64,000 nt of DNA from an uncultured Myxococcales bacterium (lineage in GTDB: Bacteria; Myxococcota_A; Polyangia; Polyangiales; Polyangiaceae): contig CALFNG010000400.1 of NCBI GenBank assembly GCA_937902985.1, forward strand, positions 1 to 64,000. The letters run 5' to 3'. Positions 7,712 through 15,458 of the stretch are shown here, in pieces. The position numbers and the translations under genes were made by a program. Position 1 is the stretch's first letter, and every line of letters starts with the position of its first letter. The notes beneath the pieces were generated by a model that was given only the letters and a program-made list of their open reading frames with translations, was not told the origin of the DNA and searched no databases.

Positions 7712-9154
7712 TCACTGGTGAGGAATGAGGTTCGTGAACCAGGCCGCGGCGCCCGCGACGAGGAGCAAGAGCACCACCAGGACACCGACCTTCTGGCCAT
7801 TCTTCTTGTCGGGTCCCGCGAGCGCCAGGGGGGCCGGGAGGGGCAAGGGCGCAGTGACCGGAGGCGCGACCACGGGCGCCATGGCCGACGCGCCGGTCAC
7901 GCGCGAAACGCGGGGCGACGAGGGCGCGGGCGGTGACGGCACCGGCTCGTCGTCTTCCAGGGCGGCGAGGTTGCCCGCCGTGATGTCCATCGGCAGCGTC
8001 GGGCGCGTGGAATCGGACTCGGTCTTGTGACCGACGGAGATCTCGTCGATCCAAGACCCGACGTTGACCATCGACCCGGTCACCTCGGGCGGATTGAGCG
8101 ACCCGGTGATGGTCGACGTATCGATCGGCTTCGAGGCCGTGGGCGCGTTGTTGTCGTCGGTCAGCGACGTGAACTCGAGGAGCGCCTCTTCGATCAACTT
8201 GTCGATGATGCTCGCCTGCATCGGGCGGTGGCGCGAGCGCTCTTTCAGGGCGCCTTGCACCAGCGTCGCGATGTCGAAGGTGCTTACCGGCACGCCGAAC
8301 TTGAACAGGAACTTCGACAGGTCGCGCCCGAGATCGCGCGCGTTCCGGTAACGGTGCGCCGGCTCGCGCGCGAGCGCCTTGTTCAAGATGCGTTCGAGCT
8401 CGGGCGGCACCTTCTTGTTGATCTGCGAGATGCTCGGCACCACTGCGGCCTGCACCTTCTTCACGGTCTGGAAGTCGGTGTCGCCGAGAAAGAGCCGCTG
8501 GCCCGCGAGGAGCTCCCAGAGGATGATGCCGACCGCGAAGATGTCGGTCCGGGCGTCGACCTCTTGGCCCATCGCCGCTTCGGGTGCGAGGTACGAGAAC
8601 TTGCCCTTGATGATCCCCGGCTCGCTCTTCTCGAGCTGGCTGTTGGCCTTCGCGAGGCCGAAGTCCACGATCTTGATCTCGCCGTGCTTCGTGATGAGCA
8701 CGTTGGGCGGCGACATGTCGCGGTGCACGATGTAGAGCGGCACCCCGTTCGGGTCGGTGAGCTCGTGCGCGTACGCGAGGCCTTTGCAGATCTCGAGCGA
8801 GATGTAGACGGCCGCTTCGACGGGAAAGTCTTTCCCGATCTTCTTGATGTGCTCGATGATCGCCTTGAGGTTCGCGCCGTCGACGAACTCCATGACGATG
8901 AAGAACGCGCTGTCGCCGACCCCGATGTCGAACACCTGGACACAGTTCGAGTGCGTGAGCTGCGCCGAGAGGCGCGCCTCGTCGAGGAACATCGAGATGA
9001 ATTTTTTCTTCGACGACAGGTGCGGGAGGACGCGCTTGATCGCCACCTGCTTCCGGAACCCCTGCAGGCCCTCGCTCTCGGCCCGGAAGACCTCTGCCAT
9101 GCCGCCCGACTCGAGCTTCTCGACGACGCGATACCGTTGGTGGCTGTCGGACAT
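7712..9154 (-). CDS. membrane-anchored Ser/Thr protein kinase
   Basis: A Hanks-type kinase of 480 residues. The start ATG at 9154 (MSDSHQRYRVVEKLESGG) has AAGG upstream; an upstream extension in the same frame is arginine-rich and rejected. The glycine loop reads LESGGMAEVF, so the first glycine is Glu. The Lys in VAIKRVLPHL, the catalytic loop HRDMSPPNVL and DFGLAK are intact. The alanine/proline-rich linker leads to one C-terminal membrane helix (VGVLVVLLLLVAGAAAWF), so the kinase domain faces the cytoplasm and only about 8 residues lie outside. Substrate unknown. The divergent neighbour is the YbjN/porin/cytochrome operon. Confidence 0.93.
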   Translation of the reverse strand: MSDSHQRYRVVEKLESGGMAEVFRAESEGLQGFRKQVAIKRVLPHLSSKKKFISMFLDEARLSAQLTHSNCVQVFDIGVGDSAFFIVMEFVDGANLKAIIEHIKKIGKDFPVEAAVYISLEICKGLAYAHELTDPNGVPLYIVHRDMSPPNVLITKHGEIKIVDFGLAKANSQLEKSEPGIIKGKFSYLAPEAAMGQEVDARTDIFAVGIILWELLAGQRLFLGDTDFQTVKKVQAAVVPSISQINKKVPPELERILNKALAREPAHRYRNARDLGRDLSKFLFKFGVPVSTFDIATLVQGALKERSRHRPMQASIIDKLIEEALLEFTSLTDDNNAPTASKPIDTSTITGSLNPPEVTGSMVNVGSWIDEISVGHKTESDSTRPTLPMDITAGNLAALEDDEPVPSPPAPSSPRVSRVTGASAMAPVVAPPVTAPLPLPAPLALAGPDKKNGQKVGVLVVLLLLVAGAAAWFTNLIPHQ

Positions 9155-9439
9155 ATCCTTCGGGGGGCCTCGCGGTCGCTTTGAGGGCTGGACGCCTGGA
9201 GCCCGCGCTCCAGAGGGTGCCATCCACGCGGAGTCACGGTCAAGACAGTGGTCGCGACACTCGCCGGCACGGCGCGGAAAGCCCCGGAACGGCTCCGCCA
9301 CGCCCAGCGCACCACGCGGACGCGGATTTTGCCGCATCCGACAGGGGTCACCTCGCGAGGATTGATTGACATGCCGCCCACTTGAAACCATTCTCGCGGC
9401 CCGCAGGGTTTGCCTGCGAACCCTGGAGGCCGTGCCACC
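9155..9439. other. divergent intergenic region, kinase / cytochrome operon
   Basis: This 285-bp gap separates the kinase start (minus) from the GTG of the YbjN-like gene (plus), so it should hold both promoters. I see no clear -35/-10 pair, hairpin or repeat, only a slightly AT-richer patch around 9358-9395. Confidence 0.5.
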
Positions 9440-9895
9440 GTGGAGAACGACTTCGAAAACGCGAAGAAGCTCGTGGAGGCCACCATCCGCAAGATCGGCC
9501 TCGACCCGGCCAACTGCCGGGCGTCGAGCGGCTCGAGCACGTCAGCCGGGCAGGCGGCCTGGACGCTCAAGAGAGGCAGCGCGTCGGTGCTGGTCGCCGT
9601 GACCAAGCGCGAAGACGAGGGGGTCGCCTACCTCCGCGTGGCCTCGCCCGTGGTCACGCTGCCCGCCGACCCCGCCAGGCACGAGGCCCTGTTTCGCAAG
9701 CTCCTCGAGCTCAACGCCGCCGGCCTGGCAAACGCCGCCTTCGGTCTCATGGGCGATCGCGTGGTGGTCGTGTCGGAGCGCCCGGTGGCGGGCCTCGACG
9801 AAGGCGAAGTCGACCAGACGGTGCGGCACCTGGCCGCGGTCGCCGACACGTTCGACGACCGGCTCGAGAAGGATTTCGGCGCCACCCGCGCATGA
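9440..9895 (+). CDS. YbjN-like (type III chaperone fold) protein
   Basis: A cytoplasmic protein of about 151 residues. The pattern RVASPVVTLP, then LLELNAAGLANAAFGL, then VVVVSERPVAGLDEGEV, then a final FDDRLEKDFG helix is typical of the YbjN/CesT-like fold, a small alpha-beta chaperone-like domain with no enzyme activity. GTG at 9440 is chosen because GGAGG lies about 10 bases upstream and the protein then starts VENDFENAKKL; an ATG ten codons earlier lacks this. Its stop codon overlaps the start of the barrel gene (ATGA), so it is translationally coupled to a porin/cytochrome operon. A role in assembling that system is inference. Confidence 0.75.
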   Translation: MENDFENAKKLVEATIRKIGLDPANCRASSGSSTSAGQAAWTLKRGSASVLVAVTKREDEGVAYLRVASPVVTLPADPARHEALFRKLLELNAAGLANAAFGLMGDRVVVVSERPVAGLDEGEVDQTVRHLAAVADTFDDRLEKDFGATRA

Positions 9896-11511
9896 CCGCC
9901 ATGAGGCCCGGGTGCGTGCCACAAACGGTCTCGCGTGCTGCCCGTCCGGCGCCCGCCGCCTGCCCCAGGTTTGCCGCGTTCGTCCGGCTTGCGACGCTCG
10001 TCGCGGCCGGCCTCCCCCTCGGCATCTTCCTGGTCCCGGCGACGGCGAAGGCCATGGATGCCGAGGTCACGAACGATGAGACGGCCCAGTTCTACGACCT
10101 TCGTTCGCCAACCGGCACGGTCCTCTCGCGCCGCCGCCTCACGGCGACGCTCGGCGTGGGCGCCTACAACCTCCTCGACGCGCCCGAGGGAAACCCGAAG
10201 GCCGCGGATCTCTCGTTTCGCGCGCGCGTTCGCTACGACGCGGACTACGGCGCCTCGGGCGCCGAGACCGACCCGACGATGTTCGCCAGCGTCGTGCCCG
10301 GGTTCCAGGAGCAGCTCGTCGACCTGATGTACGCCTACGTCGAGGGCCGGCGGCTCGCGGGAGGCTGGCTCGGGTTCAAGGCCGGGCGGCAATACGTGAC
10401 CGACGTCCTCGGCTGGTGGGGGTTTGACGGCGCCGAGGCCAGCATCACGACGCCCTACTACCTCAAGGCCGAAGTCTACGGCGGCCTCGAGGAGCGGGGC
10501 GGCATGCCGCTCGGCGCTCCTCGCTTCGAGTCCGACGGCATCTGGCGCGGGAACCGGTCGAACTTCGATCCCTCCCTCTACACGGCGTTCCAGGCCGCCC
10601 GGGCCGCGCCGGCGTACGCCGTGGCGCTCGAATCGACCGGCGTCACCTGGATCCACGGCCGGCTGACGTACCGGCGCGTCGACAACACCGGGTCCGTGAA
10701 CACCTCCGAGTTCGCGAGCGGCCTCTACCCGGCCAACATCGAGACGGGCACCCGCGTCTCCTCCGAGCGCATCGGCTACGCCATGGACGCGAGCCTGGCC
10801 AGCCTGGGCGGCGCCAAGGCGGGGATCGTCTACGACCTCTACCGGGCGGACATCACGTCGATCTACGGGTCGCTCGACGCGTACCTCGGCCGCAAGGTCA
10901 CCGTGAGCGCCGACTACGACTACTACGTGCCGTCGTTCGACGGAGACAGCATCTGGAACTTCTTCGCCGGCGAACCAACGAACGACCTCGGCCTCCGCGC
11001 GAACGTCGACGTGAACGACAAGCTCTCGATCGCTGGGGGCGGTCACGTGCGGATCTTCAGCGTGCAGACCGAGGCGTTCAATCCCACGGGCACGCAGTCG
11101 CAGTACTTGCCGTCGCCGCTCTACTCGCTGAACGGCGCGCAGTTTCCCACCAACGGGCACCCGTTCGACGGGGGGGGCGACCTTCGCGCTCGCTGGCGCA
11201 CCGGCGAGACCGAAATGGCGCTCCGCGCGAGCGGCGACTTCGGCGAAGAGGGCGACCGGGTTGGCGCGGACATCAACGCCGAGCACGTCATCGAGACGCG
11301 CTACGTCGTCAGCGGGCGCACGGGCCTCTGGCAATGGACTGACAAGCTGCAGCCCGATCGCGACACCACGAGCTTCAACTACGTCCTCGGCCTGGGCTAT
11401 CGCTTCGCGCAACGCTCGCAGGCGAAGGTCGAGTGGGAGCATGATATCAACGGCCTCGTCGGGCAGCGCTTCCGCATCATGTTGAACCTCCAGGTGGCGG
11501 CGTCGAAATGA
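9892..11511 (+). CDS. outer-membrane beta-barrel, partner of a 13-haem cytochrome
   Basis: A secreted protein of 539 residues with a long N-terminus, a hydrophobic signal (ATLVAAGLPLGIFLVPATAKA) and a probable cleavage site after residue 54. The mature part is rich in alternating aromatic strands (for example VTVSADYDYYVPSF and NYVLGLGYRFAQRSQ) and ends in a strand (RFRIMLNLQVAASK) resembling outer-membrane barrels. No named porin family is certain. The ATG overlaps the previous stop (ATGA), and its own TGA overlaps the start of the multihaem cytochrome. In Geobacter and Shewanella a barrel next to a periplasmic multihaem cytochrome forms an electron conduit through the outer membrane; that role here is inferred from context. 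A second ATG at 9901 is possible. Confidence 0.8.
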   Translation: MTAMRPGCVPQTVSRAARPAPAACPRFAAFVRLATLVAAGLPLGIFLVPATAKAMDAEVTNDETAQFYDLRSPTGTVLSRRRLTATLGVGAYNLLDAPEGNPKAADLSFRARVRYDADYGASGAETDPTMFASVVPGFQEQLVDLMYAYVEGRRLAGGWLGFKAGRQYVTDVLGWWGFDGAEASITTPYYLKAEVYGGLEERGGMPLGAPRFESDGIWRGNRSNFDPSLYTAFQAARAAPAYAVALESTGVTWIHGRLTYRRVDNTGSVNTSEFASGLYPANIETGTRVSSERIGYAMDASLASLGGAKAGIVYDLYRADITSIYGSLDAYLGRKVTVSADYDYYVPSFDGDSIWNFFAGEPTNDLGLRANVDVNDKLSIAGGGHVRIFSVQTEAFNPTGTQSQYLPSPLYSLNGAQFPTNGHPFDGGGDLRARWRTGETEMALRASGDFGEEGDRVGADINAEHVIETRYVVSGRTGLWQWTDKLQPDRDTTSFNYVLGLGYRFAQRSQAKVEWEHDINGLVGQRFRIMLNLQVAASK

Positions 11512-12839
11512 GCGCTCTCACGCCGCTGACGAGAGTCACGCTGGCCTTCGTGCGCCTCTTCGCGCCGCTCTTCGGGATCCTCTTCATCGTGCCGCTGGCG
11601 CTGGCGGAGAACCCCGCCGGCGGCGGAACGTCACAACACGGGCTCGCGCCCCTGTCCGACGACCGCCAGGTGCCGCGGGCCCTCTTGCCGCCGGGCGCGG
11701 CCGAGATGGACTCGGGCCCGAGCGACGTCATTTTCCCGCAGCAGGCCATCACGATTCGCTTCAACCACGCGAAACACCTCGGCAAAGAGATCGGCACGAA
11801 GTGCAAGACGTGCCACGGGGGCGCCTACACCAGCACGACGGCCAACGACGCCCTCGTGCCGAACGGGGAGCTGTGCGACGCGTGCCACTCGACCGACCAC
11901 ACCGACCTCGCGAAGGTGAAGCCGGGCGACGACGCGATGGGGCAGTGCGCCTTCTGCCACGTGGGTTACAAGAACGGCGACGGCAACACGGTGCCGACGC
12001 TGGCCCTGCCGCGGGCGAACCTCGTCTTCAATCACAAGACTCACGCCGACCGGAACATCGCCTGCGCCCAGTGCCACGGCGCGATCGACCAGCTCGAGCT
12101 CGCGACGCGCGACCAGCTGCCGCGTATGCAGGGCTGCTTCAACTGCCACCAGAAGCCCGACTCGGCGTCGCGCGGCGAAGCCAAGAGCGCGTGCGACACG
12201 TGCCACTTCAAGGGGGACCGCGGCACGGTCATCAAGACCATGTTCGCCAGCGGGACCCTGCAACCGCCGCGCTGGCTCCACAACGCGGAGCACACGCCAG
12301 ACTTCCTCGAGCGCCACAAGCAGGTCGCGGCCGACGACTCGCAGTTCTGCGCGAACTGCCACAAAGAAGATTTCTGCACCGACTGCCACGACGGCCGCAC
12401 CCGCCCCCGAACGATTCACCCCAGCGACTACTTGAACATGCACGCCATCGAGGCGCGCATGGAGACTCAGAAGTGCCAGAGCTGCCACCGCGAGCAGAGC
12501 TTCTGCGTCGACTGCCACCTGCGCGCCGGCGTGGCCGAGTCGAGCCCCGTGAACGCGAAAGACAACGCGCGGTTCCACCCGGCGAAGAGCATCTGGAGCG
12601 ACCCCCCTCGCCGGGCCGGCCACCACTCGTTCGAGGCCGAGCGGAACCTGAATCAGTGCGTCAGCTGCCACACCGAACGTGACTGCGTCGTTTGCCATGG
12701 CGCGCTCGGGGTGGGCGGCGGCTTCGACCCCCACCAGAACGGCTTCGTTGCCGGGTGCGCAACGCAGCTCCGCAGGAACCCACGCCCGTGCCTCGTCTGC
12801 CACGAACCTACGGACCGCGACCTCACGAGATGCAAGTGA
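11508..12839 (+). CDS. 13-haem c-type cytochrome
   Basis: A 443-residue exported protein; the signal (LFAPLFGILFIVPLALA) is probably cleaved after residue 33. I count thirteen CXXCH haem-attachment motifs: CKTCH, CDACH, CAFCH, CAQCH, CFNCH, CDTCH, CANCH, CTDCH, CQSCH, CVDCH, CVSCH, CVVCH and CLVCH. Extra His residues (FNHAKHLG, FNHKTHADR) are likely distal ligands, as in NrfB/MtrA-like and cytochrome c3-like proteins. The start overlaps the stop of the barrel gene (ATGA), a strong sign of co-translation. Electron transfer across or outside the outer membrane is the likely job; donor and acceptor are unknown. Confidence 0.93.
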   Translation: MSALTPLTRVTLAFVRLFAPLFGILFIVPLALAENPAGGGTSQHGLAPLSDDRQVPRALLPPGAAEMDSGPSDVIFPQQAITIRFNHAKHLGKEIGTKCKTCHGGAYTSTTANDALVPNGELCDACHSTDHTDLAKVKPGDDAMGQCAFCHVGYKNGDGNTVPTLALPRANLVFNHKTHADRNIACAQCHGAIDQLELATRDQLPRMQGCFNCHQKPDSASRGEAKSACDTCHFKGDRGTVIKTMFASGTLQPPRWLHNAEHTPDFLERHKQVAADDSQFCANCHKEDFCTDCHDGRTRPRTIHPSDYLNMHAIEARMETQKCQSCHREQSFCVDCHLRAGVAESSPVNAKDNARFHPAKSIWSDPPRRAGHHSFEAERNLNQCVSCHTERDCVVCHGALGVGGGFDPHQNGFVAGCATQLRRNPRPCLVCHEPTDRDLTRCK

Positions 12840-13151
12840 AACCCGCGACCCCGACTGCGGCCCTCGTGGGCCAGGCTTTGGGCCCGCCCGAGGCGCCCGA
12901 GTCGCCCCAGCCGGCTGCGGGAGGCGCGGGAGGGACGCACGCCGAGCGAGAGCCCGGCGCTGCGCAACCGGGACCACCGGGGCAGCCGGGGCTGCCGGGG
13001 CAAAGCTCGCCGCTCGAGCTACTCCCGCGGCTCGCGCAGCAATCGTCAAACATGACACCGTGGCGCGAAACGGCCTTGCAACAGCCGTGCTGCGGGGGAT
13101 ATGTGTTCATCCCTTGCCGCTGCGACAAGCTTTGTGTGAAGGAGGACGACG
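12840..13151 (+). other. 312-bp gap after the cytochrome gene
   Basis: There is no convincing gene here. One frame, continuous from an ATG at 12830, reads a proline/glycine-rich collagen-like piece (PGPPGQPGLPG) and then a cysteine patch (CCGGYVFIPCRC), but it runs on through the next gene in the wrong frame. A ribosome-binding site, GGAGG, lies at about 13141-13145 for the following GTG. No terminator hairpin was seen. Confidence 0.5.
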
Positions 13152-13406
13152 GTGAAAGAGCTCGTGCGCTACCTCTTGGAGAACGTGTACCTGGACTTCC
13201 AGGGCGAGATCTCCCTCGACACCGTCCGACAATTTCTGCGCACCGACGACAGCCGCGAGGCCCGGCAGCTTCTCCAGAAGCTCATCGAGGACAAGGGCGT
13301 CGACGAGCTGCTCCTCACGATGGCCGACGTCTTGAAGGATCATCTGCGCTCCGGGATCAACGAAGAAGTCGTCCGCGAGCAGCTCGCCCTTTACTCGGAA
13401 AGCTGA
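13152..13406 (+). CDS. small 84-residue protein, unknown function
   Basis: A compact acidic helical protein (starts MKELVRYLLENVYLDFQGE, ends REQLALYSES) with no signal or membrane segment. The GTG at 13152 has GGAGG 7 bases upstream. Its stop codon overlaps the probable start of the downstream lipoprotein. I recognise no named domain. The alternation of charged and hydrophobic residues suggests a helical bundle or small adaptor. Its placement after the cytochrome suggests it belongs to the same gene cluster, though a 312-bp gap separates them. Confidence 0.75.
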   Translation: MKELVRYLLENVYLDFQGEISLDTVRQFLRTDDSREARQLLQKLIEDKGVDELLLTMADVLKDHLRSGINEEVVREQLALYSES

Positions 13407-14554
13407 TCGCGAGCGCGCTGTTTCTCGCCGCCGCCGTCCCGCTCGGCGGCTGCGACCAGGGAGTGCAGCGCGACGAGCCGCCGGGTGTAGGCCTGCCGAT
13501 CGTGCCCCTTCGCCTCCTCGCGGCGAACATCGACATGAACCACCCCCTGCCCTCCAACGGTCGGATCGAGCTCCAGTTCGACCGGTTGTTGCAGCCGCTC
13601 AGCGTCATACGGCAGACGTTCGTCCTCGAAGACATCGGGATGACGACTGCCTTCACGCCGACGATCGCCTACGATCCGGTCGCCCGCATCGTGACGATCA
13701 CGCCCCTGACCGACGTCAACCAGGTCTTGAAGCCCGACCAGACCTACGAGCTCATCATCACGACGCCGAAAGACCGGGCCGACGTGAACGGGCTCCGCGC
13801 CATTGACGGCGCGCTCCTCGAAGCGCCTTCGTTCCGCACGATTGCGTTCAAGGTGACCGATCCCCTCCCCTCGCCGCCGACCACGGTGAGCATCGATTTT
13901 TGCCGGGACATTTACCCCATCTTCTCGCAGAAATGCTCGCTCTCGCCCTGCCACCTCGGCCCGTCGGCGAACGACAAGACCACCCCCATGACCGCGGCCG
14001 GGCTCGCCCTCGACCCCCCAAGCTTCATCGCCGGGACCGCGCTCGGCCGGGTGGCGCAGGGCGCGAACACGGGGGCCAGGTCGGTCGCCGCGGCGCCCTC
14101 GCTGCTCTTCGGCGAAGACATGCCGATCATCGACCCCACGGGAAACCCGAGCAATAGCTGGCTGATGTACAAGATCCTCCTGGCGACGCCGACTCCCGAT
14201 CCAATCGTCGAGGCGGGAGCTGATGCCACTGAAGGGGAGCCCGAGGCGGGCGGGGCCGACGCAGGGATGTTCGACGCCGGCGGGCGCGACGGAGAGGCCG
14301 GCAGCGACGGAGAGGCCAGCGACGGGGGCGTCGTGAAGACCCCTCCCGTGGTCATCCCCCCGATCGACGTCTCGCACGTCCATAGCCTTCCGTGGACCAC
14401 CGACTTCAGTGACGACCGCGCCGTCCTCTCGAACTACGTCCTGGGCCGCGAGATGCCGTACCCCGGCTTCACCGCGCCGCTCACGCCCGACCAGCTCGAG
14501 CGCGTCAGCCTCTGGATAGCCGAAGGCGCGGCCGCGCCCGCTGCCTGCAAGTAG
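13403..14554 (+). CDS. lipoprotein with Ig-like domain and a CX4CH motif
   Basis: A 383-residue predicted lipoprotein (IASALFLAAAVPLGGC). Residues about 40-150 read like an SbsA/Big_5 Ig-like domain (HPLPSNGRIELQFDRLL, then LKPDQTYELIIT). A segment FCRDIYPIFSQKCSLSPCHL follows, with a CX4CH motif of the type in planctomycete-like cytochrome domains, then a disordered Ala/Gly/Asp linker and a C-terminus ending WIAEGAAAPAACK. No ATG, GTG or TTG lies in frame near the signal. A CTG at 13403 overlaps the upstream TGA and is preceded by GGAAAG, so I use it. It would place a possible electron-transfer lipoprotein in the cytochrome cluster. Confidence 0.7.
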   Translation: MIASALFLAAAVPLGGCDQGVQRDEPPGVGLPIVPLRLLAANIDMNHPLPSNGRIELQFDRLLQPLSVIRQTFVLEDIGMTTAFTPTIAYDPVARIVTITPLTDVNQVLKPDQTYELIITTPKDRADVNGLRAIDGALLEAPSFRTIAFKVTDPLPSPPTTVSIDFCRDIYPIFSQKCSLSPCHLGPSANDKTTPMTAAGLALDPPSFIAGTALGRVAQGANTGARSVAAAPSLLFGEDMPIIDPTGNPSNSWLMYKILLATPTPDPIVEAGADATEGEPEAGGADAGMFDAGGRDGEAGSDGEASDGGVVKTPPVVIPPIDVSHVHSLPWTTDFSDDRAVLSNYVLGREMPYPGFTAPLTPDQLERVSLWIAEGAAAPAACK

Positions 14555-14564
14555 CCCGAAGGCG

Positions 14565-15458
14565 TTATCCGGATACCCGGTTGCGGCCGGCTTGCTTCGC
14601 TTCGTAGAGGCGCGCATCGGCGCGCTCGTAGAGCGATTCGGGCCCCGCTTCGTCGGCCAGGAGGGTCGCGACGCCGAGGCTGACGGTGCAGCGGATCGAA
14701 TCGTGCTCATGTTTGAGCGACGCGCTCTGCACGATGGCGCGCACCTTCTCGGCCGTGATGAGGGCGCCGTCCATCCCGATCTCGGGCAGCAGCACCGCGA
14801 ACTCTTCGCCGCCGGTGCGCGCGAAGATGTCTTCCCGGCGCAGGCGCGGCTTCACCGCCGACGACACCATCCGGAGCACGCCGTCTCCAATGAGGTGACC
14901 GTACGTGTCGTTGATCGCCTTGAAATGGTCGATGTCGAACGCGATGAGCGAGAGCGTGCGCTCGTAGCGCTTCGACCGGTTCACTTCGCGCTCGAGGGCC
15001 TCGTTGAAGTAGCGGCGGTTGAAGATCTGCGTGAGGCCGTCCACCGTCATCAGCCGGTAGATTTCCTCGTGGTAGTGAACCTCGACGTTCTCTCCCGTCA
15101 TGAACTTGAGGATCGATCGGCCGACGCGCACTTGATCGCCGTCGCACAGTCGATGTTCGGTGATCGCGTCGTCGTTCACGAACGTGCCGTTCGTGGACCC
15201 GAGGTCACTCACCCAGTACGCGGACCCGTCGAACGAGATGCGCGCGTGGTGGCGGCTGATGCTCTCCTGATCGATGAAGAGGTCGTTGCTCGACGAGCGA
15301 CCGATCTCGAACGGTGCGGACCCGAGCTGCACGCGGCGTCCGAGTTCGGATCCGTAGATCACGACGATGCAGGCGTCTCCCGCGCGTGCCCCATCGGCCC
15401 CGATCGCGAGCTCGGTGATCTGGGTAACGCGGGTTCGCTCGGAGTCGTCGGGCGCCAC
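14565..15458 (-). CDS. FHA-domain diguanylate cyclase (GGDEF)
   Basis: A 297-residue cytoplasmic signalling protein. The FHA domain (about 44-115) has the core GRSSSNDLFI, SISRHHARI and LGSTNGTFVND and would bind phosphothreonine, most likely on a Ser/Thr kinase or its substrate. The GGDEF domain carries GGEEF at about 216-220 and an inhibitory RxxD site (RRED, about 207-210) five residues upstream, so it should make cyclic di-GMP with product feedback. It joins kinase signalling to c-di-GMP. It is convergent with the cytochrome-cluster lipoprotein, 10 bp apart. The start at 15458 fits the FHA layout. Confidence 0.93.
   Translation of the reverse strand: MAPDDSERTRVTQITELAIGADGARAGDACIVVIYGSELGRRVQLGSAPFEIGRSSSNDLFIDQESISRHHARISFDGSAYWVSDLGSTNGTFVNDDAITEHRLCDGDQVRVGRSILKFMTGENVEVHYHEEIYRLMTVDGLTQIFNRRYFNEALEREVNRSKRYERTLSLIAFDIDHFKAINDTYGHLIGDGVLRMVSSAVKPRLRREDIFARTGGEEFAVLLPEIGMDGALITAEKVRAIVQSASLKHEHDSIRCTVSLGVATLLADEAGPESLYERADARLYEAKQAGRNRVSG

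Follow-up and report, generated by a model that had tools for sequence, protein, structure and literature searches.

Whether a myxobacterium encodes a route for electrons through its outer membrane is the question raised by a five-gene cluster (positions 9440–14554, forward strand) in a stretch of 64,000 nucleotides, hereafter the window, from an uncultured Myxococcales bacterium (GCA_937902985.1, contig CALFNG010000400.1, positions 1 to 64,000). Conduits of the porin-cytochrome type have been described in bacteria that reduce metals or oxidise iron. An earlier note, made from the letters of the window, had described a YbjN-like gene, a barrel gene and a 13-haem cytochrome gene joined by two ATGA overlaps, followed by a gene for an 84-residue protein and one for a lipoprotein with a CX4CH motif, and it had read the barrel and cytochrome as an electron conduit. 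All of these features, including the 13 CXXCH motifs, are present at the places given, and the ATGA overlaps are located at 9892–9895 (YbjN-like/barrel) and 11508–11511 (barrel/cytochrome). The window contig (C400) is part of an 8.3-Mb assembly, and the named genomes nearest to it are those of Myxococcota of the Labilithrix/Polyangiaceae kind. The analysis upholds the earlier reading, in that the core of the cluster quite probably conducts electrons across the outer membrane in the manner of porin-cytochrome systems, and this rests on the barrel prediction, on the conservation of the pair and on a paralogous cluster of the extracellular electron transfer type.

The barrel and its 13-haem cytochrome

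The pair was followed through a sample of 284 Myxococcota genomes, with locus counts taken from six-frame hidden Markov model (HMM) searches and with a cytochrome profile built from a closer subset, so that its reach beyond Myxococcota is limited. The barrel was found in 51 of these genomes by single-sequence search and the cytochrome family in 129 by profile (E 1e-20), many of the latter being weaker relatives. At stringent cut-offs the barrel gene lies directly upstream of the cytochrome gene at 110 of 123 unique loci, and a further 7 loci are cut by a contig end, so that of the 116 loci whose upstream sequence could be used 110 have the barrel there. Four of the remaining six (L176, L178, L179 and L186) have a weaker barrel-family open reading frame just upstream and the other two (L175 and L177) a barrel-sized frame with a marginal match at full sensitivity. 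Because the two genes are conserved and adjacent in more than 100 loci, and all 13 motifs are kept in 112 of the 123 cytochromes, the pairing is not due to chance, and by these counts barrel and cytochrome form an almost invariant pair across Myxococcota that constitutes the core of the cluster. The hosts include the cultured strains Sorangium cellulosum So0157-2, Minicystis rosea DSM 24000 and Polyangium fumosum DSM 14668, as well as a Sandaracinus metagenome-assembled genome and one Myxococcus strain. The earlier note had made its reading depend on conservation of the five-gene order in relatives, and this stands for the barrel-cytochrome order across Myxococcota, but the links among the five genes differ in strength. 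The full order, in which the YbjN-like gene is optional, is held across the family of the window, and the genes for the 84-residue protein and the lipoprotein lie downstream of the cytochrome in 71 of the 123 loci.

The barrel gene (9892–11511, +) encodes a precursor of 539 residues with a Sec-type signal peptide. The earlier note would have been undone by a barrel not predicted to be an outer-membrane protein, and the AlphaFold2 model, computed from a 70-sequence alignment with a mean predicted local distance difference test score (pLDDT) of 90.8 and a predicted template modelling score (pTM) of 0.84, is a predicted barrel of 22 strands, as counted from the strands listed, whose top structural matches by Foldseek and VIA-align are outer-membrane barrels. 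Among these are Occ porins, ushers such as the pilus usher FimD (Z 16.3 over 344 residues) and, from the Mtr complex, MtrB (6r2q_B; Z 14.9, root-mean-square deviation 5.5), the last giving the longest alignment among the matches listed (396 residues) with a score tied with those of ushers and porins. The modelled fold thus indicates an outer-membrane barrel without telling which kind. Searches of Pfam and NCBIfam returned no family above noise for the barrel or for its 69 aligned relatives, and MtrB_PioB (PF11854) was matched by none of the 70 barrel sequences and, at E 1, by no sequence in the whole genome.

The cytochrome gene (11508–12839, +) encodes a precursor of 443 residues with an N-terminal signal sequence and exactly 13 CXXCH motifs, at residues 99, 123, 147, 186, 210, 229, 281, 290, 323, 333, 384, 393 and 428. 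Haems 1–6 make up a c7-like half (Pfam Cytochrome_C7, 1.2e-17), which has sequence matches to the GSU1996 fragment 3ov0 and to ActA of alternative complex III and a weak structural relation to ActA, the structural comparison having returned 6f0k and 8k9e. Haems 7–13 have no clear match among solved structures, and MtrA chains are absent from the profile matches of the cytochrome in solved structures; TIGR03508 gives weak matches in 20 of 74 cytochrome relatives and none for the window cytochrome. Outside the motifs, 12 histidines are conserved in 93–100% of the 74 sequences and one more in 76%, which would apparently suffice for 13 bis-histidine haems. Two cysteines outside the haem motifs, Cys417 and Cys442, are invariant and flank the last haem, where they perhaps form a disulfide. 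Three loci (L172, L174 and L186) combine the barrel with a cytochrome of 7 haems in which the c7-like half is missing and the match is confined to haems 7–13, and because of this arrangement haems 7–13 are likely to be the trans-barrel part, or wire, of the longer protein.

The strongest functional argument for the window pair as a conduit comes from the layout of a second pair in the same genome (L175, G000:C477:8000-26000). Here a barrel-sized frame and a 13-haem cytochrome (profile E 2.6e-38) are encoded together with 24-haem, 10-haem and 5-haem cytochromes and a divergent gene of the NapC/NirT family (NapC/CymA family) that scores above the Pfam cut-off, and relatives of this paralogue adjoin 19-, 23-, 34- and 8-haem cytochromes. 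As judged from its genes, L175 is arranged like a cluster for extracellular electron transfer of the porin-cytochrome type, and it likely encodes a full pathway for such transfer. It resembles the window cluster in having a barrel-sized gene beside a 13-haem cytochrome of the same wider family, but differs in its additional 24-, 10- and 5-haem cytochromes and its NapC/NirT gene, and neither an 84-residue protein nor a matching lipoprotein was found beside it.

The monohaem lipoprotein and the accessory genes

The lipoprotein reading frame (13403–14554, +) contains a lipobox with its Cys codon at 13451–13453, which reads CDQG with Asp at position +2, and a haem motif of the CX4CH type, CSLSPCH, at 13934–13954; an Ig-like Big_5 region falls below the Pfam cut-off for the window protein. 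Five positions are invariant in an alignment of 39 lipoproteins, namely C1, C162, C167, H168 and M335, the last in a Met-Pro pair, and the conserved Met, at 14453 in the window, is likely an axial haem ligand. PSCyt1 is matched by 5 of 17 relatives (best 4.7e-15), the window protein itself lying below reach, and there are also matches of relatives to cytochrome c families. A feature of the PSCyt1 type, CX2-5CH followed by a conserved downstream Met, is present, and by these sequence features the lipoprotein is a monohaem cytochrome. In the more distant lineages of L062, L066, L067 and L148, the barrel is directly preceded, and not followed, by a gene of the lipoprotein family with PSCyt1-like haem motifs.

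The lipoprotein is co-inherited with the pair. Within the order of the window, where 44 genomes were sampled and the pair was scored as present at a cytochrome match with E below 1e-80, the lipoprotein profile matches 33 of 33 genomes with the pair and 0 of 11 without it (Fisher 1.3e-10, a value that overstates independence as these genomes are related, which tells against the conduit reading). One family, coded f2, holds both states, pair and lipoprotein present and both absent. Because of the co-inheritance, with both states within a single family, the lipoprotein is regarded as a partner of the pair and not a passenger. In several of the 33 genomes it is encoded away from the conduit genes (L155-L157, L159, L161 and L169).

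How translation of the lipoprotein begins is unusual, as the window gene has no ATG, GTG or TTG start in a usable position. At about 60 of 65 loci (L072-L151 and the window, 13152–14554, among them) the lipoprotein is in the −1 frame of the gene for the 84-residue protein, and the distance from the stop codon of that gene to the lipobox ranges from 12 to 249 nucleotides, with 30 distinct distances being multiples of three and five others not; most of these loci are likewise without ATG, GTG or TTG at a usable place. Because the −1 frame is kept at varying spacing, and mostly without a canonical start, translation of the lipoprotein seems to start no later than at the stop codon of the upstream gene, and without a canonical start codon. 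The commonest stop context is CTGA, in which a candidate CTG start (13403–13405 in the window) overlaps the TGA stop; the CTG is missing in four loci with TAG or TAA stops (L099, L116, L150 and L162). A −1 ribosomal frameshift from the 84-residue gene into the lipoprotein was considered and set aside, there being no conserved slippery site and no clear 3′ drop in synonymous variation. A CTG start overlapping TGA is the preferred explanation over a frameshift, and frameshifting or an internal start is possible in its place, given the TAG and TAA loci that lack the CTG.

The other two genes appear from their distribution to be looser associates of the core. The YbjN-like gene (9440–9895, +; GTG start, 151 residues), an optional member whose product is predicted to be cytosolic, matches the Pfam families TY-Chap1 (PF22551, 2.9e-10) and YbjN (PF10722, 5.4e-8) and lies upstream of the barrel at 21 of 123 loci, in some lineages only; its Pfam family alone suggests a chaperone-like role. 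The 84-residue protein (13152–13406, +; GTG start, no signal peptide), encoded beyond a spacer of 312 nucleotides after the cytochrome gene (12840–13151, +), is the most conserved of the five (52–80% identity), matches no Pfam family above chance and is present in 54 of the 284 genomes, some of which are without the conduit. In such conduit-less genomes other lipoprotein-like genes can follow the gene for this protein. The cluster is flanked by a Ser/Thr kinase-like gene at 7712–9391 (−), divergent from it, and by an FHA-GGDEF-like gene at 14565–15458 (−), converging on it, both read from the sequence and possibly its signalling neighbours.

A probable conduit and its alternatives

On the conduit reading, the 22-strand barrel would act as an insulating sheath in the outer membrane, and the exported 13-haem cytochrome would be inserted into it from the periplasm as a wire, haems 7–13 spanning the barrel and the c7-like haems 1–6 reaching into the periplasm. 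The Met-ligated monohaem lipoprotein would be a dedicated partner, most likely an anchored shuttle that links the conduit to the respiratory chain in the periplasm, and the YbjN-like and 84-residue proteins would be accessory cytosolic factors. Several points weigh against this account. Electron transfer itself is inferred, as are its direction, the insertion of the cytochrome in the barrel and the location of the lipoprotein. Family and profile searches found no sequence similarity between the barrel and any known conduit barrel, and its structural matches are not specific for MtrB, since ushers and porins score equally high. The cytochrome model, made without haems, is of low quality in its second half (pLDDT about 45–65), and no multihaem outer-membrane cytochrome is encoded within 6–7 kb at loci of the window type, whereas L175 has one. 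Moreover, most named hosts are soil myxobacteria regarded as aerobes, which would have no obvious need of extracellular respiration.

Multihaem cytochromes can serve in the periplasm as capacitors or as enzymes, and the relation of the first half of the cytochrome to c7 repeats, together with its weak structural relation to ActA, would also fit a periplasmic electron store or reductase, with the barrel as a separate pore that admits a soluble substrate. This is improbable, as the conserved non-motif histidines are enough for all 13 haems and leave no obvious open catalytic haem, the barrel pairing is near-invariant over deep divergence, and the paralogous pair has a NapC-like gene and a 24-haem cytochrome beside it. 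Another reading, which is very unlikely, takes the barrel for an ordinary transporter or an usher-like protein, adjacent to the cytochrome because both serve the envelope and forming no functional complex with it: its best structural scores are indeed to pilus ushers and porins, but the cluster has no usher, chaperone or pilin genes and the pairing is kept in more than 100 loci and recurs in the paralogous cluster, where large cytochromes accompany it.

The place of the lipoprotein is a question within the conduit reading. It may instead be a terminal contact on the outer surface, a monohaem protein held by its lipid and its Ig-like domain and replacing MtrC/OmcB; this is a variant of the conduit reading, so that the two probabilities overlap, and it is put forward tentatively, as less likely than a shuttle. 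The position of the gene after those of the conduit, the co-inheritance and the Ig-like region are in its favour, and Asp+2 can also mark cargo of type II secretion to the surface, as in PulA (PMC3222651). In Myxococcus xanthus, Lys+2 directs lipoproteins to the inner membrane and Ala+7 to the matrix, and the window protein lacks the Ala+7 of matrix export (PMC3222651). A single haem, moreover, would offer minerals a small contact area. With lipoboxes picked without preference for Asp or Glu, Asp is found at +2 in 52 of 70 of these lipoproteins; among the other putative lipoproteins encoded at the same loci it is found in 6 of 68. Asp+2 is the signal for inner-membrane retention of lipoproteins in Escherichia coli, and by analogy its enrichment hints at, and leads us to lean toward, a periplasm-facing shuttle anchored in the inner membrane. 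Such a shuttle could connect to a cluster elsewhere in the genome (G000:C500) that encodes 5-haem, iron-sulfur (Fer4), NrfD and COX1 proteins, typical of alternative complex III with an oxidase.

Taken as a whole, and with more doubt than attaches to the conduit itself, soil myxobacteria may generally carry a conduit without a multihaem surface cytochrome, paired with a periplasmic Met-ligated monohaem lipoprotein that feeds or drains an oxygen-respiring chain and whose translation lacks a canonical start and is obligatorily coupled to the gene for the 84-residue protein. If so, the conduit would serve electron uptake, or the passing of electrons to oxidants or enzymes outside the cell or to other cells, and the barrel-and-wire principle would be used outside the metal-reducing anaerobes. 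Organisms such as the cultured Sorangium and Polyangium are not known for electron exchange with the outside, and such exchange by predatory or cellulose-degrading soil bacteria becomes directly testable in cultured strains. The window pair and L175, with its 24-haem cytochrome, would in addition offer a natural comparison within one genome of conduits without and with a large surface cytochrome.

Relation to known electron conduits

The earlier note had called the gene set unlike the classic Mtr or Pcc operons and suggested a different version of the conduit. For Mtr this is borne out. The cluster resembles MtrCAB, MtoAB and PioAB in combining a barrel with an exported multihaem cytochrome, and MtrB can be aligned over the 396 residues given above at a score that ushers and porins share, but the cluster has no PF11854 match, 22 and not 26–28 strands, 13 and not 10 haems, and no MtrC. 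Mature MtrB has a cysteine motif near its N-terminus, which is not found in the window barrel, as the two Cys of the precursor are both within the signal-peptide region and the mature part has none. To judge from these differences, the window cluster is not an Mtr system. Through haems 1–6 the cytochrome is related in sequence to c7 repeats, as in the fragment of dodecahaem GSU1996 (3ov0) and ActA (6lod, 6btm, 6f0k), but unlike alternative complex III the cluster contains no iron-sulfur or NrfD-like genes, and the genome has its own cluster resembling that complex with an oxidase elsewhere (G000:C500). A survey of the literature, with preprints and most subscription journals outside its scope, gave no paper joining Myxococcota or Sorangium with such a porin-cytochrome system, and the main texts of PMC11475568 and PMC12545173 do not mention Myxococcota.

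With respect to Pcc the contrast is less clear-cut. Pcc clusters encode a porin-like outer-membrane protein of 18–22 strands next to a periplasmic cytochrome with 5–14 haems, and the two-gene clusters of Anaeromyxobacter, like those of Kuenenia, are without an outer-membrane multihaem cytochrome (PMC4245776). The 22-strand barrel and the adjoining exported 13-haem cytochrome fall within the ranges for Pcc (OmbB-OmaB-OmcB of Geobacter; Anaeromyxobacter), a likeness of described features by which the pair would function as a Pcc conduit does. Searches for the Anaeromyxobacter Pcc cytochrome in one genome (G008) suspected to be of that genus gave no clear candidate. The window cytochrome differs in carrying its 13 haems in 443 residues, where those of Anaeromyxobacter and Kuenenia carry 12–14 in 338–344, and the window cluster has a co-inherited monohaem lipoprotein where a surface multihaem cytochrome is usual. 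The suggestion of a different version of the conduit is thus well placed, since the cluster, as a variant among porin-cytochrome (Pcc) conduits, has neither an MtrB/PioB match nor an MtrA-like decahaem protein nor a multihaem surface cytochrome. In comparison with the known systems three things are new: a myxobacterial family with 13 haems, the monohaem lipoprotein with which it is paired, and the occurrence of this family in soil myxobacteria that have been cultured.

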